Assembly (NCBI GenBank): GCA_030834125.1
Contig: JAURFW010000016.1
Coordinates: 1-41,478 of the forward strand
Direction of reading: 5' to 3'
Length of the DNA: 41,478 bases
DNA from: Bacteroidota bacterium
GTDB taxonomy: Bacteria > Bacteroidota > Bacteroidia > NS11-12g > UBA955
The translations under genes and the position numbers were made by a program. Shown here piece after piece: positions 6,040 to 38,666 of this stretch (its first letter is position 1; every line of letters begins with the position of its first letter). The notes below the pieces were generated by a model. It searched no databases. It worked only from the letters and a program-made list of their open reading frames with translations, and was not told where the DNA came from.

Positions 6040-7513
6040 GGAAGTATTAATCGTGGGTGCAGGTTTAGGCTCTCTTGCTTCTGCATTGCGTTTGAGTTAC
6101 AGCGGTTATAAGGTAAAAATAATCGAAAAGCAGAGTATAGCAGGAGGAAGACTCAACGTAATAAAACAAGACGGATTTACATTTGATGTAGGGCCTTCAT
6201 TTTTTTCAATGAGTTACGAATTTGTTGAACTTTTTAAGAGCATAGGCGAGCCAATTCCATTTGAATTGAATGAATTAAATCCGTTATATACGGTAAATAT
6301 TGCCGGCAGTAATAGAGTTTTTCAAATTTATAAGGATTTAGATAGGCTTGCCGAGGAATTCAAAGGGATAGAAAATGACTTAGAGTCTAAGATTAGAAAG
6401 TATCTCAAAGGGGCGAAGGAAATATTTCATGATACCGAATATAAAGTAGTAAAGAAGAATTTTGATTCAATACTAGGTTTTATTTTAAGTATGGCCACTG
6501 TGCCAATGAAACACCTACCGAAGTTATTCAGAACATTTTGGCAAGAACTAGAAAGACATTTCGAGTCTGAAGAAGTGAAAATTATTTTCTCCTTAGTTGC
6601 TTTCTTCCTTGGAGCTACTCCGTTTAATACACCTTCGGTATACAATTTATTAAATTACACCGAACTCGAGCATGACGGATATTGGAATGTCAAAGGGGGG
6701 ATGTACAAGATTGTTGAGGGTATTTTAGGGTTATTAGACAAAAAAGGTGTAGAAATTATTTACAACACAGAAATAACCAGCGTATCTCACAGAAACGGAG
6801 AATTAACATCTCTTCAGGATTCAAATGGATATGAATACAAAGCAGACGTTTATATTGTAAATGCGGATGCCGCCTGGTTCAGAGGTAAATTCTTAAAGCG
6901 TGCTAAATATACTGAAGAGAAACTCGATAAAATGGAGTGGACTCTTGCGCCTTTCACAATTTATCTTGGGGTAAATGGAAAAATTCCAGGAATTCACCAC
7001 CACAACTATTTCCTAGGTGATAATTTTAGAGATTATGCAGATACTATTTTTAGAAGTACAGTAGCTCCTAAAAAGCCCTATTACTATGTTAACGTAGCAA
7101 GTAAAAGTAATCCTGAATGCGCACCCGAAGGTTGTGAGAACTTATTTATACTTTGCCCGGTTCCAGATTTAAGAATTAAACCCAACTGGAACGATGGGGA
7201 AGAGTTGGTGAACGAGATATTGGATGACTTATCGGAAAGAGTTAAGTTCGATATCAAAAACAATATTCTAACAAAAGTTGTTTATACACCTGAGAAATGG
7301 AGAGATATGTTTAATCTTTACAAAGGAAGTGGACTAGGATTGGCACACGGTTTAAACCAAATAGGAGCCTTTAGACCATCAAATAAAGATGAAGAATTAA
7401 ACAATCTTTACTACGTTGGTGCAAGTACTACCCCAGGAACGGGATTGCCAATCGTTGTTATAGGATCAAAATTAATTCACGAAAGAATAATACATGAGCA
7501 TCCAACTATTTGA
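6026..7513 (+). CDS. crtI: Phytoene desaturase CrtI
   Basis: CrtI is a FAD-dependent desaturase that converts phytoene to lycopene-type polyenes. I start it at the ATG 6026-6028 (495 aa), because residues after it form the expected Rossmann strand KEVLIVGAGLGSLASALRL; the open frame extends upstream into crtZ, but those residues look like frame-shifted crtZ. The amino-terminal dinucleotide motif reads GAGLGS, with serine where the third glycine of GxGxxG is usual. The GRLNVIKQDGFTFDVGPS segment and the C-terminal YVGASTTPGTGLPIVVIGS motif are characteristic of CrtI-like desaturases. It overlaps crtZ by 14 bp and crtB by 20 bp. Confidence 0.94.
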   Translation: MGKNKEVLIVGAGLGSLASALRLSYSGYKVKIIEKQSIAGGRLNVIKQDGFTFDVGPSFFSMSYEFVELFKSIGEPIPFELNELNPLYTVNIAGSNRVFQIYKDLDRLAEEFKGIENDLESKIRKYLKGAKEIFHDTEYKVVKKNFDSILGFILSMATVPMKHLPKLFRTFWQELERHFESEEVKIIFSLVAFFLGATPFNTPSVYNLLNYTELEHDGYWNVKGGMYKIVEGILGLLDKKGVEIIYNTEITSVSHRNGELTSLQDSNGYEYKADVYIVNADAAWFRGKFLKRAKYTEEKLDKMEWTLAPFTIYLGVNGKIPGIHHHNYFLGDNFRDYADTIFRSTVAPKKPYYYVNVASKSNPECAPEGCENLFILCPVPDLRIKPNWNDGEELVNEILDDLSERVKFDIKNNILTKVVYTPEKWRDMFNLYKGSGLGLAHGLNQIGAFRPSNKDEELNNLYYVGASTTPGTGLPIVVIGSKLIHERIIHEHPTI

Positions 7514-8333
7514 TAAAACTTCAAAAGAAATAAGTCGTAGAGTGTCTTTGAATTATTCTACAAGCTTTTCTCTAGGCATAAGATTGCTTGGTAAAGAATA
7601 TCAATGGGCAGTTTTTGCCACTTATGGTTTTGTTCGTTTCGCAGATGAAATTGTTGATACATTCCATAATTATGATAAAGCCAAATTGTTGAGGGAGTTC
7701 AAAATTCAGACTTACCAAGCAATTGAGCAAGGAATTAGTACAAATCCAGTGTTGCATAGTTTTCAATTAGCTGCTAATCAGTTTGGTATTTCAAATGATT
7801 TAATTGAGCCATTTTTTGAAAGTATGGAACAAGATCTTCATAAAAATGAATACGACGTACAGGAATATAATGAATATATTTATGGGTCAGCTGAGGTAGT
7901 TGGATTGATGTGTTTGAAGATTTTCTGTAAAGGTGATGAAAAGCAGTACAATGAATTGTTACCCTATGCTAGAAGTTTAGGCGCAGCTTTCCAAAAAGTT
8001 AACTTCCTGCGAGATATTAAGAGTGACATTGAAGAAAGAGGTCGTGTATATTTTCCTGATGTCGATTTTACTTCTTTTAATGAAAATGATAAATTATCGA
8101 TAATTGAAGATGTTAAAAAGGATTTTGAAAACGCCTACAAAGGAATTATTAAGCTACCAATGGGCTGTAGATTAGGCGTATATACAGCTTATATATACTA
8201 TTTAAAGCTTCTTGAAAAAATTGAACGTACTACAGCTGCTGAAATTATGAATAGACGTATACGTATACCAAATTCGCAAAAAATTGCATTGTTAGCTGAA
8301 AGTTATGTTCGAGAAAAGTGGATGCCTGCTTAA
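7494..8333 (+). CDS. crtB: Phytoene synthase CrtB
   Basis: CrtB condenses two geranylgeranyl diphosphates head to head into phytoene, the first committed carotenoid step. The 279-residue protein has both Asp-rich substrate-Mg motifs of the squalene/phytoene synthase family: DEIVD at 51-55 and NFLRDIKSD at 170-178, the latter followed by ERGRVYFP. Length is normal. The ATG at 7494 lies inside the end of crtI. Its TAA shares bases with the stop codon of the convergent radA (TTAA at 8330-8333). The substrate-producing synthase CrtE is not in the window. Confidence 0.96.
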   Translation: MSIQLFDKTSKEISRRVSLNYSTSFSLGIRLLGKEYQWAVFATYGFVRFADEIVDTFHNYDKAKLLREFKIQTYQAIEQGISTNPVLHSFQLAANQFGISNDLIEPFFESMEQDLHKNEYDVQEYNEYIYGSAEVVGLMCLKIFCKGDEKQYNELLPYARSLGAAFQKVNFLRDIKSDIEERGRVYFPDVDFTSFNENDKLSIIEDVKKDFENAYKGIIKLPMGCRLGVYTAYIYYLKLLEKIERTTAAEIMNRRIRIPNSQKIALLAESYVREKWMPA

Positions 8334-25106: not shown

Positions 25107-26216
25107 TTATTTATCGGTTTCATCGCTCCAGTCAGCGATAAATAAGTTGGTATCGCGTGTTCCACCATTATTACGGTTTGAACTAAAAATAAGTTTTTTA
25201 CCATCTGGTGAGAACATAGGAAATGCGTTAAACATACTATTGAAGGTAATCTGTTCCAGATTGCTGCCATCTTCATCAATCATATATAACTGAAAATCGT
25301 ATCCACGATCGCTATGATGGTTGCTTGAGAAAATAATTTTTTTTCCAGATGGGTGGTAAAATGGTGCCCAATTGGCTTTACCTAAATGTGTTACTTGCTT
25401 TAAGTTTGATCCATCAACATTAACCGTATAGATCTCCATATTTGTAGGTGCCACAAGGTTTTTACTTAAATAATCTTTGTATTTCTTTATGTCTTCCTCT
25501 GATTTGGGTCGAGATGCTCTAAATACTAACTTTTTACCATCAGGAGAAAAGAAAGCGCCACCATCATAACCAAGACCATTAGTGATTTGTCTTGGGTTAG
25601 ATCCATCAATGTCCATAATCCAAAGTTCTAAATCGCCACTTCTTGTAGATGTGAATACAATTGATTTACCATCTGGAGAAACAGTTGCTTCGGCATCATA
25701 ACCAGTTTCATTAGTTAATTGGTTAACAATTTTACCACTTTTATCTGCAATAAATATGTCGAAATCTGCATAAATAGGCCATAAGTATGCTCCTGTGGTT
25801 TCAGGTACTGGAGGACATTCGTTCGCACCTAGGTGGGTGCTGGCATAAATCATTAAAGAGTCGCCGGGCATAAAGTATGAACAAGTAGTTCTTCCTAGGC
25901 CGGTACTTACTAAATCTGGCTTATAATCAGCACTTCCCATTTTATATAATGGAGTCCAAAATATTTGATCGCACTCTAAGCCCCAAGCTTTATTATTCGA
26001 TTGAAAAACTATGGCACTATTGTCAAAACTGAAATATGCTTCGGCATTATCCCCACCAAAAGTTAATTGTTTTAAATTTTGTAAATGTGGTTCAGAAATA
26101 TTCTCGTTTTTTTGAGGGTGTTGGCGAGCGTGCCCATGAGCGTGATCTTTCTTATCCTGCTGTGCAGATAGATTCAGCGCAAAAGATATAGTTAAGATTA
26201 AGACAATTTTTTTCAT
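25107..26216 (-). CDS. TolB-like PD40 beta-propeller protein with His-rich N-terminus, in heme operon
   Basis: From the ATG at 26216 (369 aa) the protein has a signal peptide (1-19, cleaved after SAQ), a His-rich stretch HAHGHARQH just after it, and several PD40/WD40-like repeats with SPDGKSIVFTSTR-, SPDGKKLVFRASR-, HPSGKKIIFSSN- and SPDGKKLIFSSNR-type blades, as in TolB and its relatives. Conserved-looking cysteines occur in LECDQ, TTCSYF and ANECPP. It starts 2 nt after the HmuY lipoprotein stop. A periplasmic or surface role in heme or metal transfer is possible from context and the His-rich start, but the family itself only says propeller. Confidence 0.8.
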   Translation of the reverse strand: MKKIVLILTISFALNLSAQQDKKDHAHGHARQHPQKNENISEPHLQNLKQLTFGGDNAEAYFSFDNSAIVFQSNNKAWGLECDQIFWTPLYKMGSADYKPDLVSTGLGRTTCSYFMPGDSLMIYASTHLGANECPPVPETTGAYLWPIYADFDIFIADKSGKIVNQLTNETGYDAEATVSPDGKSIVFTSTRSGDLELWIMDIDGSNPRQITNGLGYDGGAFFSPDGKKLVFRASRPKSEEDIKKYKDYLSKNLVAPTNMEIYTVNVDGSNLKQVTHLGKANWAPFYHPSGKKIIFSSNHHSDRGYDFQLYMIDEDGSNLEQITFNSMFNAFPMFSPDGKKLIFSSNRNNGGTRDTNLFIADWSDETDK

Positions 26217-26218
26217 AA

Positions 26219-27244
26219 TTATTTTATTAATTCCCAAGCCATTTTGGGATAACCTTTTCTTCCTTGATCGTCGTAAAAATCAACAAAACGTAGTTTAAAG
26301 TAATTATCGTTTTTTGTTTTTAAGACATAATATTGATTTGGGACAATTGTATACTTGCTTGCTGATTGGCTGTACTCCTTCCAGTCAAACCCTATTACAT
26401 CGAGATTGGCGCTGTAATTTAAACCAACGGCCTCGCTAATAGACATGTTATCAAAAGTAGTACCGTTATTTATTTGAGCTATTCTTATTTTATTTGGGTT
26501 TGATAAAACACCGCGTATAATGTATGGATATAATGTTCCATCGATGTCTGGAATCATTTCCTTGTAAGTGGTGAAAACAACATCCCATTTATCATTTTCA
26601 GCAGGTTCATTTGCAATTAATTGTTTACTAGTAAACGAATAGTAAGCATAATTATGAATGGGTTTTGTGAATATTCTACTTAAAAACATAGAACTGGAGT
26701 CGGCTAAATATCCCCAAAGAAACTCGTATACACCTCCAATAACTGAAATAGGTTTAATTTTTATGTATTGTTGAATCCCTAGGTCCTTGTCACCTAAGTT
26801 CAATATGTAACTTCTGTTTAGTAAACTAGAATACCCATTTGAAGTCTTAATAAAACAACCACGAAAAGCTAAAGAATCTTTATTCCCACTAGGATGATCA
26901 AAATTCCAGTCCAGAGATTTTAAATTCAAATTGTGTAAATTTTCGAAAGAGATACTATCAATCATAGCTGCCCCAAATTCAGAATTCTTACCGCTGCAAA
27001 TTACAAAGTGAGGCTCTCCTTGGCAGGCAACACCAATATCCCAAAGCCCGAAAGTTGATGTGTATGTTTGCTGAGATTCAAAATCAAAAAACAATTGATT
27101 TTCATAAGTTTCACCCATCTCAAAGGTTTGAGTTTGAATACCTGCCGCTACCGTAGGTTGTGAATACAACGGTTCGTCTTTTTCACAACTAGTAAGCACA
27201 GAAAGTCCAATCAATAATCCTCCAAAAAAATGTATTCTTCTCAA
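26219..27244 (-). CDS. hmuY: HmuY-family heme-binding lipoprotein
   Basis: HmuY proteins are surface lipoproteins that take heme from host or other hemoproteins and pass it to a TonB-dependent receptor. The 341-residue product has a signal peptide with lipobox LTSC (C20). Two regions match the HmuY pattern: an early EMGETYENQLFFDFES...WDIG block and a late NEPAENDKWDVVFTTYK...YYVLKTKNDNYFKLRFVDFY block. It shares these with the T9SS protein at 29517. The start must be TTG (27242-27244), since no ATG precedes the lipobox. It follows the receptor stop by 4 nt. The heme-ligating residues cannot be assigned from sequence, and a different ligand is possible. Confidence 0.78.
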   Translation of the reverse strand: MRRIHFFGGLLIGLSVLTSCEKDEPLYSQPTVAAGIQTQTFEMGETYENQLFFDFESQQTYTSTFGLWDIGVACQGEPHFVICSGKNSEFGAAMIDSISFENLHNLNLKSLDWNFDHPSGNKDSLAFRGCFIKTSNGYSSLLNRSYILNLGDKDLGIQQYIKIKPISVIGGVYEFLWGYLADSSSMFLSRIFTKPIHNYAYYSFTSKQLIANEPAENDKWDVVFTTYKEMIPDIDGTLYPYIIRGVLSNPNKIRIAQINNGTTFDNMSISEAVGLNYSANLDVIGFDWKEYSQSASKYTIVPNQYYVLKTKNDNYFKLRFVDFYDDQGRKGYPKMAWELIK

Positions 27245-27248
27245 TTTT

Positions 27249-29507
27249 CTACAAATTTAAATTACATTGAATAAAAAAAGTTCTTCCCATTCCAATATTT
27301 AATCCCCCATTAGAAGAACTATGAACCCCTCCGGTTTGTAATAGATTACCCACTTGGGTTACATTAAATAAATTTTTAGCTCCTACTTGAATTCGTATGC
27401 TTTTCCAATTCTTACTCATTGAAAGATCACTTAAAGTGAATCCAGGTAATTCATAAGGGATTGTAGAAGAGGTAAATCCAATAGTTTTTCCAGTAAAACG
27501 ACTGAAATAATGAATACCTAAATCAAACCGTTTAACTTCATAATTAAGATTTAGATTGGCCTGTTTTACTGTCCATTTTGTTATTTCTTCAACTTTACCT
27601 GAAAGTTGAGATTCATTTTGAATGATACTTCCGCCAAGAGTAATTTTAAGTTGATTAATAAATAAATCAGTGTTTAAAGATCCTCCTTGAGTATTCATTT
27701 CACCAATATTTATATATCTATACAAGTTGGTATTCATATCTACCAAACTCAACTGAATTTGATTTATTACTTCATTGTAGAAAAAGTTTACCTTAAATTT
27801 TGCTTGGATATTATTCGAAACCCTGTGTCGGTAATCAATGGAAGCTACCCAATTGTCCGATCTTTCAGGAACAAGATTTGAATTCCCTTGTATATTATGG
27901 TTTATATCAACAAATAAAAAATATAGCTCTTTTGCAGTTGGTGCTCTAAACCCTTTAGCATAAGATCCTCGTATAGCTAAATGCTTTGAAGCATCTAACT
28001 TTAACTGTAATGACGGAACCAAAGGTATGAATTTGAAATCATCGCCTAAAAAATTGGGGAGGAGGCTATTCCCAAATGCACTGTTGTATGCGAGTCTTAA
28101 TGAGGGTTTTATCTTAAATCGGGTTGTCGGATTGTACTCTATAGATGAAAAGATCGCAAGGTCATGAATTTTATTATCTCCGCTTATCCTTAAGGTAGAT
28201 AAGGTTTCACCCGTGTATTCATATCCTAAAAGGCTTTGAACTTTTTTATTTTTACTCCTATGTTCCCAAAGCCCACGAAGATTAATTTGAGTATTGATGG
28301 TTGTATCCTGATCAGAAGGTCGTGTAACAATTTCTTTACCTGTAACAAGGTTTCTTCGAACATTGGTTTTTCTGCGTAAATAGTAATTGAATGCATTCTG
28401 GAAACGCAAATCATCAAATTTTGTAGGGCTATATTGGGTAACTGAAGCAATGTCTGCCCTAAATGTTCTAAAGTAGTTATTATAACCTTTAACGCTTATT
28501 AAATTATACTCGGCATTACCACGATCAGTTAATTTCTCTTGGAAATATTGCAAACTTAAGTTTTGTCTGATTTTTGATCCATTGTAACTCAGTCCGCTTT
28601 TACCAAAATACTTAATTTTAGGCTTCCAATCCATACTTCTTGTATTGAGGTCGAAATCAAACCCCTCAAAAAATTGTCTGCCACCAGATAAATTTAAATT
28701 TATTTTGTGTTTTTGAGATTGATAAAGTGATTTGGTTGTGCCAAAATCAAAATTGTAGTTTGTTAAACCATCTACATATGAATTTACCGATATTCTATTA
28801 TTAACTGTAAATGGGGTTCTGGTTATGATGTTTATAACACCACCTATAGCGTCTGTTCCATATACTACACTCATTGGACCTTCAATAATCTCAATTTTTT
28901 CAATCTCATTGATAGGAATTTGAGATATGTCGATATTACCATTTATTCGGCCAATCATGGGAACGCCGTTAATTAAAATCTTTACGTTTTGACCACCCAT
29001 CCCTTGCAATTGCATGGAAGTACCTAGAGATGCATCGTTATTTAGAATAATTGAGGTTTGATTTTGAATAACATCAGCAACCGTTTGAGCTCCCATTTGT
29101 TTTATAGTTTTAGACGAAACTACTCTTAAAGAGTATGCTTCATCGGTAGCTAATCTTGGTCTCGCTGATGTTGTTATGGAAACGGGGTTTATTTCACTAA
29201 CATAGCCATTAACTTCAAAGAAAATAGAAGCAGTGTCTGCTTTGAATCTTGTTGTTCCAACAATTATCCCAATAGAAGAATCGATATTAAAATGTAAATC
29301 TTCTATCGAAGGAACACTTATTTGTCCTATTTCGTTAGTCAAATAAATTGAAGAGTTACAGCTAATCTCAATACCAGCTAAGGGTTGATTAATGTTAAAA
29401 TCGTATACCCTAACCGTCCTTTGTGCACTGATTAAATTTATTGAAAAAAGTGCACAAATTAGTATAGAATTTTGCTTGGTTATCAATTTGATAAATCTGG
29501 AAAGCAA
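27249..29507 (-). CDS. TonB-dependent outer-membrane receptor, heme-receptor type
   Basis: The 752-residue protein has a signal peptide (to about residue 29), a carboxypeptidase-regulatory-like domain (about 30-110), a plug (about 125-235) with ADVIQNQ and VVYGTDAIGGVINIITR, and a 22-strand-type barrel. In the barrel, FRAP (520-523), H537 and NSNL (542-545) match the FRAP-His-NPNL arrangement of heme receptors such as HmuR. It would import heme across the outer membrane using TonB energy. TTG at 29505-29507 is the only suitable start, 9 nt after the stop of the T9SS HmuY-like gene. No TonB/ExbB/ExbD genes are in the window. Confidence 0.86.
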   Translation of the reverse strand: MLSRFIKLITKQNSILICALFSINLISAQRTVRVYDFNINQPLAGIEISCNSSIYLTNEIGQISVPSIEDLHFNIDSSIGIIVGTTRFKADTASIFFEVNGYVSEINPVSITTSARPRLATDEAYSLRVVSSKTIKQMGAQTVADVIQNQTSIILNNDASLGTSMQLQGMGGQNVKILINGVPMIGRINGNIDISQIPINEIEKIEIIEGPMSVVYGTDAIGGVINIITRTPFTVNNRISVNSYVDGLTNYNFDFGTTKSLYQSQKHKINLNLSGGRQFFEGFDFDLNTRSMDWKPKIKYFGKSGLSYNGSKIRQNLSLQYFQEKLTDRGNAEYNLISVKGYNNYFRTFRADIASVTQYSPTKFDDLRFQNAFNYYLRRKTNVRRNLVTGKEIVTRPSDQDTTINTQINLRGLWEHRSKNKKVQSLLGYEYTGETLSTLRISGDNKIHDLAIFSSIEYNPTTRFKIKPSLRLAYNSAFGNSLLPNFLGDDFKFIPLVPSLQLKLDASKHLAIRGSYAKGFRAPTAKELYFLFVDINHNIQGNSNLVPERSDNWVASIDYRHRVSNNIQAKFKVNFFYNEVINQIQLSLVDMNTNLYRYINIGEMNTQGGSLNTDLFINQLKITLGGSIIQNESQLSGKVEEITKWTVKQANLNLNYEVKRFDLGIHYFSRFTGKTIGFTSSTIPYELPGFTLSDLSMSKNWKSIRIQVGAKNLFNVTQVGNLLQTGGVHSSSNGGLNIGMGRTFFIQCNLNL

Positions 29508-29516
29508 AATAGTTAA

Positions 29517-30824
29517 TTAATATTTTATGAATGTTGCGTTAGTAATATTCTCGTTTTGAATAATCTTAACCCAATATTGACCGGTTTTTAATAATTCCGT
29601 ATTGAAAACAAACTGAGAACTATTGTTCTTAGAAGTATAAACCAGTTTGCCCATTGCGTCAAATACATGAAATTCAGAAGACTCGTTTCCACTGAGTTCA
29701 ATATTTAATTGGTCCTTTGTTGGATTCGGGTAAAGTTTAAACGTAACCAACTCATTTATACGGGTATTGTTCTGAGCGCCAATTTTTGAGTACTGAAGTA
29801 TTGTATTTCCATTTGTCATGCCACCAAATTCAATCATACGCACAGCATAGTAGTCAGCTCCCGTAGAATTTGTAACTTCAATTAGGTAAACCTGACTATC
29901 CAAGCAAACAAATGATTGTCCGTTGAATGATTTCCAGTCAGATCCAATTCCAGTTAAATCATTCTGAAAACCCGCGCCAGAAGCAATTACATTACTATCC
30001 ATAGCGTCATTTATATAGTATTCCCCATTAGCGATTAAATCACTCCATGCAAGATCTGAATACTTAGCAGTACGAATACCTCTTTTTGATTCTATTCCCA
30101 TGGTTAAATAAGGTACGTATTGTCCCATATACATAGTTGGCGCGTAATAACGAGTAAATGACAACTGCCACTCAGCATTTGCTGGTTCAACTTGAACTTG
30201 TTTTCCAGTTACAAGGTTGAAATATTTATAGGTTGCTCCATTTGCAGCACTTTGAGCAATTGTAGACTCACTTGCTGTGTTTTCGCTTATTGGCTCATAT
30301 TTGAAAACTAAGTCGCCGTTGGACTCTTGAGAAATTGGCATGAACTTAAAGAAAGTTTGAGTGGCGCCGTTGTTAACAACGATTAAATATAATGAATCAC
30401 CTTCCACTTTATGTGAACTAGAATTGTATACCCCCCATGAAAAATCCCACATGTTACCTGCATCATATTGCTGGTTTAAAGCTCCTTTTTCATGAGTATG
30501 GATATCGTTGTACGGTTGAGTCCAAGATTCCCATCCTGTTGTATCAAAATTAGAGTAAGATGTATTGTCTCCATAAGGATATAAAAATACAAATACGCCA
30601 GCACCATGATTAAATCTAATGCAATTGTCACGAGTAACTGTTGTGTGAGCAATATGCCAACTATTAAGTGGTACTGAAGTTTCTTGCATAGCGTTAAGAT
30701 CGAAAAAGACCTGATTCGCATAACCTGGACCCATACTAACAGTATCCGTTGTTACCTGTCCACTTAAGGAATTAGAAATAAATGATAATAAAATGCTTAA
30801 AGTGAAGAATATTGATTTTTTCAT
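29517..30824 (-). CDS. HmuY-like protein with T9SS type A sorting domain
   Basis: The 435-residue product has a signal peptide (cleaved near SG|QV, about residue 22), a HmuY-like body (about 25-345) and a C-terminal type A sorting domain (about 363-435, with KLYPNPTKDQLNIEL, VFDAMGKLVYTS and LLKTGQYWVKII). The body is a paralogue of the lipoprotein at 26219: SMGPGYANQVFFDL compares with EMGETYENQLFFDF, VEPANAEWQLSFTRYY with NEPAENDKWDVVFTTY, and IGSDWKSF with IGFDWKEY. It should be secreted by T9SS as a soluble or surface-linked heme scavenger (inference). First gene of the operon, with its own promoter. Confidence 0.82.
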   Translation of the reverse strand: MKKSIFFTLSILLSFISNSLSGQVTTDTVSMGPGYANQVFFDLNAMQETSVPLNSWHIAHTTVTRDNCIRFNHGAGVFVFLYPYGDNTSYSNFDTTGWESWTQPYNDIHTHEKGALNQQYDAGNMWDFSWGVYNSSSHKVEGDSLYLIVVNNGATQTFFKFMPISQESNGDLVFKYEPISENTASESTIAQSAANGATYKYFNLVTGKQVQVEPANAEWQLSFTRYYAPTMYMGQYVPYLTMGIESKRGIRTAKYSDLAWSDLIANGEYYINDAMDSNVIASGAGFQNDLTGIGSDWKSFNGQSFVCLDSQVYLIEVTNSTGADYYAVRMIEFGGMTNGNTILQYSKIGAQNNTRINELVTFKLYPNPTKDQLNIELSGNESSEFHVFDAMGKLVYTSKNNSSQFVFNTELLKTGQYWVKIIQNENITNATFIKY

Positions 30825-30844: not shown

Positions 30845-30875
30845 CAAAAGTAGTTAAGCAATGTGCCTACCTCAA
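30845..30875 (-). promoter_or_regulatory. Promoter of the heme-uptake operon
   Basis: On the minus strand, TTG (30875-30873), a 20-nt spacer and TACTTTTG (30852-30845) form a Bacteroidota promoter 20 nt before the ATG at 30824. No Fur box was recognised around it, but the hairpin-like repeats at 30910-30950 lie just upstream. Confidence 0.6.
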
Positions 30876-30909: not shown

Positions 30910-30950
30910 ATAGAAAACTAGAAACGGCGATAGGTTTTAGTTTTCTATCG
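30910..30950. other. Overlapping inverted repeats in the heme-operon/hscA intergenic region
   Basis: ATAGAAAACTA (30910-30920) and TAGTTTTCTAT (30938-30948) form a perfect 11-bp inverted repeat with a 17-nt loop. A second repeat, CGATAG (30928-30933) / CTATCG (30945-30950), overlaps it and would compete for pairing. The site lies upstream of both divergent promoters, so it may bind a regulator such as a heme- or iron-sensing repressor (inference). Confidence 0.5.
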
Positions 30951-36603: not shown

Positions 36604-37539
36604 CTATTTCTGTTTTCTTATAAAACTTAAAATTAAAATGGGAGCACCAATAAGAGAACTAATTGGGTTGATGGGTAAGAGTATTCCAGGTATTGAGTAA
36701 TGAGCAATACAATCAGCTCCAACAGCGAGTATTCCTCCCCATAAGATTGTTGGTAGCAATATTTTGGAATGTTTTTCAGTTTTGTATAGACGTTTTGCAA
36801 TATGAGGACCCACCAATCCGATGAAGCCAATTGGACCTGCATACGCGGTTAACCAACCGGCAATAATTGCTCCAGTCCAAATCAATAAATTTTTTATTTT
36901 TACAGGGCTCACACCCGACGCTTGTGCATATTCATCTCCCAATAAATAACAATCCAATGAATTTCTAAAAGAGTAAATAAGTATAATTCCAAAAAATACT
37001 GGAGAACTCATACTGAAAAGATGAGTCATTTCAATTCTTTCAAAATTACCCATACCCCAGAAAGTGAACTCTCTTAGTTGCTCATTACTGCCGAAATACT
37101 GCATGAGTTCTGTCGCCGCTGAAAATAAAAAACCTAATACTAAACCTGTCAATAACAATCGGTGGGTATGTCCAAAGCCTCTATTTATTAAAAGTTGCAA
37201 GCCTAGGGCCGAAAAAGCACCTATGGTACTGCCCCAAATTGGTGAAATCTCAAATGATAAAGAGAATGTTCCTGATAAAAATATAAATAAAGCCATTCCA
37301 AATGTGGCTCCAGGTGAAATACCAATTAGATAGGGGCCAGCAAGTGGATTTCTAAATAATGTTTGCATTAATAATCCAGAAAAACTAAGGCCTATACCAG
37401 TTATCACAGCACCCATTACCCTTGGGAATCGGAATTCCCAAAATAGGAAATTGGAAACTTCATTATCCCAAATTTTTAGGTCAAATAAGAAAAGTATAAT
37501 TAATACTATAAATAGAAATATGTTACCTAAATACTTCAC
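36604..37539 (-). CDS. FecCD-type ABC transporter permease (iron, heme or cobalamin)
   Basis: The 311-residue membrane protein has about eight to nine helices with family motifs RFPRVMGAVITGIGLSFSGLLMQTLFRNPLAGPYLIGISPGA, MGNFERI and AGPIGFIGLVGPHIAKRLY. It would form the inner-membrane channel for iron-siderophore, heme or vitamin B12 import. Its GTG start overlaps the stop of the binding-protein gene by 4 bp (GTGA), so the two are co-translated. A companion ATPase is not next to it or anywhere in the window, which is unusual. It ends 6 bp from the convergent DUF4294 gene. Confidence 0.9.
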   Translation of the reverse strand: MKYLGNIFLFIVLIILFLFDLKIWDNEVSNFLFWEFRFPRVMGAVITGIGLSFSGLLMQTLFRNPLAGPYLIGISPGATFGMALFIFLSGTFSLSFEISPIWGSTIGAFSALGLQLLINRGFGHTHRLLLTGLVLGFLFSAATELMQYFGSNEQLREFTFWGMGNFERIEMTHLFSMSSPVFFGIILIYSFRNSLDCYLLGDEYAQASGVSPVKIKNLLIWTGAIIAGWLTAYAGPIGFIGLVGPHIAKRLYKTEKHSKILLPTILWGGILAVGADCIAHYSIPGILLPINPISSLIGAPILILSFIRKQK

Positions 37540-38666
37540 CTAAACTGTTGATAGAAATATAATGAATCGAATTTTCCTTGGCCAATATTTATTAAATCAT
37601 TCAATAAAATTTCTGGGTGGATAGATCCTAAATCCCAATAGGAATTAGCACCTGATTCTTCTTGTTGTTTATTATTTTGAAATATCTTGATCTTGTCATT
37701 AGAATTCAAAACACTTTCAATTCTTGGTTCATTTTTTAATAGTTTATCTAAGTCTGAATACGAACCTATATTTAGCCAAATATCAGCTTGAAGTAAGCAC
37801 TTAAAGGCGATTTCCAATGGTATGGTATATGTGAGTTGTTGCTCGTTTAGGTTTTCATCTTGCCATATACAGTTTAGATTAGCATCATTCAATAAATGAC
37901 TAAGGTAATTATTCCTGTTTGGTACCATCCAATTGCCACTGTACGGAGCATTAATCATTATTGTCTTTTTGTGTGGAGTGATTTTTTTTAAATGACTCAG
38001 ATAAACAGAATCAACTCTATTGAAAATTTGGGTAGCAATATTTAGTTTATTCGTGATTAGTCCGAAAACCTTAATCCATTCGGATCTTGCTAAGGGATGG
38101 TTTTCTTGATGATTTTGGATATATAAAACGGTTATATTCTGTTTATATAGTCTTGAAAATGCAGGAATGCCTTCTGCATTTAGAGTGTAAGCGCAGAATA
38201 TATTTGGCTCAGATTTAATTAATTCTTCAAGTTGAAGTTCACCAGAGGGTTGAATTTCAATTGGGTTGTTTAAATATCCCTTCAATGTAGAATGTACAAA
38301 GTTTAAATTATCGATTGCCACAATTGAATTTTCCGAATTGAGTTCAGTTAAAAAACGCAGGAAAATACTGCTGCTTACAGCAATTCTTCTATTGTTACTT
38401 TTGATTTTAATAGATGAGGGGAATAGGCCTGGATTTTTACCCATATGATATGTTGCTAATTCCTTGCCATCACTAAAAAATACTTTTAATAAGGTATCAG
38501 TTTCATTGTAGCCTATTTTGAAAAGTTCTGAGTATTTATTGTTCTTCCAATTTATATTCACTTTATCTCGTCCTTCTGATTTATATTGACAACCGTATAT
38601 GCCCAATATGAAAATTAGGTGATAAATTCTTCGATATTTTTTGAGGAGTAATGTCAGAGTGTTCAA
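37536..38666 (-). CDS. Substrate-binding lipoprotein of the FecCD-type transporter
   Basis: The 376-residue protein is a probable periplasmic-binding lipoprotein: lipobox GIYGC (C26) and a peripla_BP_2-like (FecB/BtuF) fold with AVSSSIFLRFLTELN, LVAI-like DNLNF, LEELIKSEPNIFCAY and the EIAFKCLLQADIWLNIG region. It should hand its ligand to the permease encoded just after it. The start must be non-ATG, most likely TTG 38664-38666, because no ATG precedes the signal. A 72-bp gap separates it from the divergent FtsB-like gene. The ligand (iron chelate, heme, cobalamin) is not identifiable from sequence. Confidence 0.82.
   Translation of the reverse strand: MNTLTLLLKKYRRIYHLIFILGIYGCQYKSEGRDKVNINWKNNKYSELFKIGYNETDTLLKVFFSDGKELATYHMGKNPGLFPSSIKIKSNNRRIAVSSSIFLRFLTELNSENSIVAIDNLNFVHSTLKGYLNNPIEIQPSGELQLEELIKSEPNIFCAYTLNAEGIPAFSRLYKQNITVLYIQNHQENHPLARSEWIKVFGLITNKLNIATQIFNRVDSVYLSHLKKITPHKKTIMINAPYSGNWMVPNRNNYLSHLLNDANLNCIWQDENLNEQQLTYTIPLEIAFKCLLQADIWLNIGSYSDLDKLLKNEPRIESVLNSNDKIKIFQNNKQQEESGANSYWDLGSIHPEILLNDLINIGQGKFDSLYFYQQFR

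Follow-up and report, generated by a model that had tools for sequence, protein, structure and literature searches.

Two HmuY-fold proteins with different predicted surface fates flank one heme-type TonB receptor in an operon conserved across Bacteroidota

Why would a single TonB-dependent receptor be encoded between two HmuY-like proteins, one carrying a sorting domain for the type IX secretion system (T9SS) and the other a lipid anchor? The question is raised by a locus of the window, the whole 41,478-nucleotide stretch of DNA analysed here, in which the original prediction had read the two proteins as partners in a heme relay. The three open reading frames were found in the order that it had given, with transcription on the minus strand running from T9-HmuY through the TonB receptor to LP-HmuY; the intergenic gaps of 9 and 4 bases make it very likely that the three genes form one transcription unit.

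29517-30824, minus strand: T9-HmuY, encoded first in the operon; 435 aa, HmuY fold and C-terminal T9SS sorting domain of type A
27249-29507, minus strand: TonB-dependent receptor of the heme type; 752 aa, TTG start uncertain
26219-27244, minus strand: LP-HmuY, an HmuY-fold lipoprotein; 341 aa, inferred TTG start
25107-26237, minus strand: PD40 beta-propeller protein; its gene and that of LP-HmuY share 19 bases

The PD40 gene is a conserved fourth operon-side gene in the window's family and is followed by recO; its product has a His-rich stretch (DHAHGHARQH) after the signal peptide, and PD40 genes lie downstream of LP-HmuY in several settings. At the other end, T9-HmuY is preceded by a divergently oriented gene for an Hsp70 of the HscA type, and the following elements were located upstream of the T9-HmuY start codon.

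30845-30875, minus strand: Bacteroidota-type promoter TTG-N20-TACTTTTG, 51 to 21 bases before the T9-HmuY start codon
30886-30900, minus strand: direct repeat TGAC-N7-TTAC, upstream of the promoter and belonging to a motif that relatives also keep
30910-30948: near-perfect inverted repeat, each arm 14 nt long, in the region that separates HscA from the divergent T9-HmuY gene

In the window's family, 15 of the 21 loci have repeats of the form TGAC-N6/7-T(G/T)AC at 53-153 bases before the T9-HmuY start; the expectation from shuffled sequence is 0.5, and 0.5% of random stretches contain the pattern. A count over the entire window by itself gives no excess above chance. These direct repeats, with a period of about 11 bases, are likely to be the binding site of a putative regulator. 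A LuxR-type response regulator gene adjoins T9-HmuY in several other families.

The relatedness of the two proteins was examined at the level of sequence, profile and modelled structure, with the following domains and signals assigned.

29769-30755, minus strand: two-domain HmuY-like body of T9-HmuY, residues 24-352 (AlphaFold model, pLDDT 91.5)
29520-29747, minus strand: T9SS type A sorting domain of T9-HmuY, residues 360-435 (TIGR04183, fold match)
27173-27187, minus strand: predicted lipidated Cys20 with CEKDE, a predicted surface-export signal that fits C-X-K-(D/E)2
26669-27136, minus strand: N-terminal HmuY-like domain of LP-HmuY (structure model, profile comparison)
26237-26653, minus strand: C-terminal HmuY domain of LP-HmuY (PF14064), residues 198-336

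HMM alignment to the HmuY family, proposed with the original prediction for both bodies, placed LP-HmuY there securely (PF14064, 5.3e-14, 53.1 bits against a cut-off of 27), as it did 51 of the 52 aligned members of its family. The window's T9-HmuY alone gave no match to this model and the idea that it is recognisable through Pfam HmuY was dropped, although 21 of the 38 members of its family match at E<=0.01; the T9-HmuY profile matches BfrB at 3e-5 and HmuY at 0.009. Structural models gave the HmuY fold for both proteins: the T9-HmuY body aligned with PinO 6r2h at Z 13.8 (133 aligned residues, 2.8 A) and with 4gbs at Z 13.4 (VIA-align, AlphaFold model), while the LP-HmuY model (AlphaFold, mean pLDDT 92.7) aligned with HmuY, PinO, Tfo and Bacteroides relatives at Z 11.3-13.8, the value for PinO being again 13.8 and that for HmuY 3h8t 13.6 (136 aligned, 2.9 A). 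All ten Foldseek matches of LP-HmuY at E<0.001 were HmuY-type structures. The folds are thus not unrelated, and the shared blocks named in the original prediction (MGxxYxNQxFFD, EPAxxxxWxxxFTxY and IGxDWK) proved real, with a BLASTP E value of 1e-9 between the two proteins (22% over 331 aa) and a profile-profile probability of 100 (E=5e-47, 277 columns).

Each body, at about 300 aa, is twice the length of HmuY, and by these comparisons both are two-domain HmuY proteins. The halves of LP-HmuY match each other by profile comparison (probability 91, E 1e-6) and the N-terminal portion of the LP profile is hit by HmuY from the PDB too, by which the N-terminal half is read as a second, diverged HmuY copy. 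Low-Z matches of this N-terminal part to HtaA and nitrobindin (Z 5 or less) were given no weight. For T9-HmuY the halves match over a shorter stretch (probability 84, E 8e-6), and its internal duplication appears the weaker case.

The sorting domain ascribed to the first protein was borne out by Por_Secre_tail (4.8e-13), by TIGR04183 (42.3 bits, cut-off 23) and by fold, the C-terminal 75 residues resembling the mirolase CTD 8qb1 (Z 11.3, rmsd 1.0 A over 70 residues). With a signal peptide-like N-terminus, and with SprA of the T9SS machinery present in the window's genome (2.2e-165), T9-HmuY is predicted to be a T9SS cargo that is held on the surface or released. The lipid anchor claimed for its paralogue is likewise predicted, the lipobox cysteine (residue 20) being invariant in all 52 aligned sequences. 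The N-termini of the LP-HmuY family carry C-X-(K/R)-(D/E)2 in 26 of 52 members and at least two acidic residues at positions +2 to +6 in all 52, and the surface-export signal C-X-K-(D/E)2 is that of Capnocytophaga (PMC5080379); LP-HmuY is accordingly a predicted surface lipoprotein. Apart from the Met of the MG motif, the LP-HmuY body, for which the loop alignment to HmuY is unsure, yielded no conserved His or Met that could be named as a ligand; because heme ligands vary within the HmuY family, with His/His in some members and Met/Met in others (PMC9331221, PMC11967795), this does not decide for or against heme binding. Histidines of T9-HmuY are conserved in part of its family only.

We then considered whether the arrangement is a fixed unit. 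Among the 57 genomes of the window's order, the T9-HmuY protein had matches in all 57 (a few to the sorting domain only) and LP-HmuY in 56, and the order T9-HmuY, receptor, LP-HmuY was found, wherever contigs allow, in nearly all fetched relatives of both families, with differing outer neighbours. Eighty further loci from public assemblies were gathered with the LP-HmuY alignment, the T9-HmuY alignments being short of conserved stretches, and most of them (labelled Flavobacteriales, Crocinitomicaceae, Bacteroidales, Saprospirales and other Bacteroidota) have the same order. In total, 127 of 155 loci (some genomes counted twice) have both genes on one strand and T9-HmuY comes first in 125 of the 127, so that the gene order sought in other genomes recurs in many other families. 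A lone LP-type HmuY was seen close to the genes for Lon protease and the beta subunit of ATP synthase in L153, L155, L161, L164 and L143 (at about 7000-8000); in these Chitinophagaceae-type loci neither a receptor nor a T9SS copy lies within 7 kb of it.

A tree of 51 T9-HmuY and 52 LP-HmuY bodies split cleanly into two clades (support 1.0), and pairwise distances within the one group followed those within the other (Mantel r 0.91, a value that 0 of 2000 permutations reached). The clean split and matched distances point to one old duplication that gave two specialised lines inherited together; matched trees would arise equally from plain vertical inheritance of a linked pair.

These patterns bear on the relay. 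The main rival reading, which we consider unlikely, holds that LP-HmuY serves the receptor as its lid or dedicated partner (SusC/SusD-like or HmuY-HmuR-like), and that T9-HmuY is an independent scavenger, taking another heme source such as heme proteins and giving the heme to the receptor or releasing it. It would account for the receptor and LP-HmuY genes always adjoining while T9-HmuY is separable from them, by a cassette or by a position downstream (L176, L181), and for the orphan LP-HmuY of Chitinophagaceae; known HmuY-HmuR pairs, moreover, work without a T9SS copy (PMC11967795). Against this, the close mirroring of the two trees and the leading position of T9-HmuY in 125 of 127 loci suggest joint work, although co-inheritance in one operon could give such a pattern without contact. 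Sequence does not fix the order of transfer, and the two proteins could also each serve the receptor independently. What stood of the claimed relay pair is the HmuY fold in both proteins, their differing predicted surface fates, the one receptor that they flank and a conserved unit linked to heme genes; hand-over from T9-HmuY to LP-HmuY is, in our judgement, evenly poised.

The middle gene encodes a TonB receptor as claimed, with matches to Plug and beta-barrel domains, and its sequence includes the following element.

27864-27953, minus strand: heme-receptor signature GFRAPTAKELYFLFVDINHNIQGNSNLVPE (FRAP / His / NxxL)

The FRxP-His-GNxxL signature, which marks receptors for heme and hemoglobin, is present in the window receptor and in 94 of 104 distinct partner receptors. 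The best NCBIfam match of the window receptor is TonB-hemin, at 119.7 bits and below the cut-off of 316.9, and it scores against BtuB models too. In the sister family, a second set consisting of a TonB receptor, an HmuY-like lipoprotein and PD40 (L105:4-6968, L103:37-5879, L102:398-5515) lies downstream of an ABC-3 metal transporter; in L105 one of the transporter's permeases is a fusion with an Fe_dep_repr_C domain. The receptors of this second set showed no FRAP-His-GNxxL by simple pattern search, and their HmuY relative may for that reason serve metal, not heme.

A further link to heme is given by the genes that enter the operon in relatives. In four loci (L147, L162, L179 and L206), HmuT-HmuU-HmuV-HemS, that is, a periplasmic binding protein, a FecCD permease, a heme-type ABC ATPase and HemS/ChuX, stands between T9-HmuY and the receptor. 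Across 296 genomes of the class, HemS was found in 32 and a strong T9-HmuY in only 114, yet 29 of the HemS carriers have both; in at least 13 genomes HemS is within 10 kb of T9-HmuY. HemS near the operon occurs mainly in ferrochelatase-bearing genomes with a strong T9-HmuY. The notion that ferrochelatase bearers keep HemS and auxotrophs lose it was rejected (11/37 versus 18/77 genomes with strong T9-HmuY). From its sequence context, heme is the likely ligand of the operon.

Other intervals were also observed. A CbiX-like chelatase, the start of which resembles a signal peptide, lies between T9-HmuY and the receptor in L200, L202, L204, L205, L208 and L209, often together with FMN_bind/Fer4_5 or PepSY proteins, a combination that fits removal of metal from a tetrapyrrole and is possibly an extracytoplasmic heme dechelatase module. 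DUF6607 occupies the same interval in L165, L201 and L203, suggesting a heme-linked role for it. In the window itself, a transporter pair is encoded about 6 kb upstream of the operon.

37536-38666, minus strand: periplasmic binding protein (Peripla_BP_2), adjoining the FecCD gene
36604-37539, minus strand: FecCD permease, the sole FecCD found in the genome and a candidate inner-membrane partner

As a FecCD permease is encoded 6-7 kb from the operon in more than 10 related genomes, it may be the operon's inner-membrane partner; B12 or iron could equally be the substrate of the window's only such pair.

The heme need of the lineage was assessed from its biosynthetic genes. Ferrochelatase and UroD were each found in only one of the 57 genomes of the order, the same one in both cases (G033), and both are missing from the window's genome (98% completeness), which encodes a heme-copper oxidase; their absence from 56 of 57 genomes predicts that the order depends on outside heme. 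HemS was absent from all 57, and imported heme may thus be used whole. In the class sample (n=296), a strong T9-HmuY was found in 77 of 113 genomes without ferrochelatase (68%) and in 37 of 183 with it (20%), an association (odds ratio 8.4, Fisher p 2e-16) whose test ignores shared ancestry; ferrochelatase is present in 37 of the 114 genomes with a strong T9-HmuY.

That the operon of the window's lineage imports other tetrapyrroles (B12, coproporphyrin or heme precursors), and heme only in HemS-bearing relatives, is improbable. The scores of the receptor against BtuB models, the absence of HemS in 57/57 relatives and a FecCD permease and binding protein that could be BtuCF-like would agree with it, but FRxP-His-GNxxL is kept in the window receptor and most relatives, and with ferrochelatase and UroD lost it is heme that the lineage needs. 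A dosage explanation, in which the genes are redundant copies of a single hemophore and their surface fates hardly matter, would agree with the shared fold and blocks, yet the two deep clades with fixed, differing export signals in the sampled pairs (the lipobox Cys in 52/52 LP-HmuY, the sorting domain in T9-HmuY copies) leave that explanation a very small probability.

The preferred reading remains heme import with a relay. Homology, fold, signals, gene order, co-inheritance and heme-gene association form its basis, and from them we infer heme binding, surface location, the direction of hand-over and the use of heme as cofactor. T9-HmuY would be exported by the T9SS, then be held on the surface or released, and would catch heme or heme-protein complexes; LP-HmuY, beside the TonB receptor, would take the heme, probably from T9-HmuY, and present it to the receptor, which would draw on TonB energy to import it. 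With neither heme synthesis genes nor HemS, the window's lineage would probably use the heme intact as cofactor; relatives that have HemS or other cassettes may take iron from it. That the operon is a surface heme-import system we regard as highly probable; the whole explanation, with hand-over from T9-HmuY to LP-HmuY and intact cofactor use added, is somewhat favoured. A fuller proposal is tentative and falls a little short of an even chance: a dedicated two-step relay, which arose by an ancient duplication of a double-domain HmuY and is found again across Bacteroidota, would be the chief source of heme for a whole uncultured and heme-auxotrophic order.

Two HmuY-fold proteins with differing, fixed surface fates that travel with one heme receptor across Bacteroidota make up a widely conserved and testable system, in which, if the reading is true, type IX secretion would feed a lipoprotein-receptor import complex. 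Heme auxotrophy is thought to be one cause of many bacteria resisting cultivation (PMC11139205); if the operon is the heme route, it would explain the dependence of the whole order and would suggest heme or heme proteins in isolation media.

Comparison with known systems qualifies the claim of novelty. A T9SS-secreted HmuY has been reported in Flavobacterium columnare (C6N29_01035; PMC9618737), with an HmuY domain and Por_Secre_tail as in T9-HmuY; it differs in that the report concerns one gene only, with no lipoprotein as partner, and the Delta-hmuY strain had no growth defect (PMC9618737), which counts against the heme-import explanation. An HmuY gene adjoining that of a T9SS-sorted protein is also on record, in Prevotella intermedia (PIOMA14_I_1196-1198), where the locus is co-induced about 100-fold by iron shortage (PMC10434189); to judge from its description, that locus has no receptor between the two genes, and no likeness to HmuY is described for its T9SS protein. 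The part of the claim that held is the combination: in a literature search of mostly non-subscription papers, no report was found of two HmuY paralogues of differing surface fate around one receptor, nor of a two-domain HmuY.

The HfpR-DoxX-HfpY operon of Flavobacterium psychrophilum (PMC9331221) likewise joins a TonB receptor, with FRAP/NxxL and His, to a heme-binding HmuY-family protein, and its DoxX gene recurs in one locus related to the present operon (L203); it has one HmuY-like protein only, with no T9SS partner described (PMC9331221). The Porphyromonas gingivalis Hmu system (hmuYRSTUV) shares with the present operon an HmuY-fold surface lipoprotein encoded next to a TonB heme receptor. 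Its HmuY is one single-domain protein, anchored and then shed by proteolysis (PMC11967795), whereas the present operon has two double-domain copies, one built for T9SS export, and neither the CobN-type HmuS nor HmuTUV of the P. gingivalis type was seen among its annotated neighbouring genes. We class the operon as a variant of the Hmu kind.
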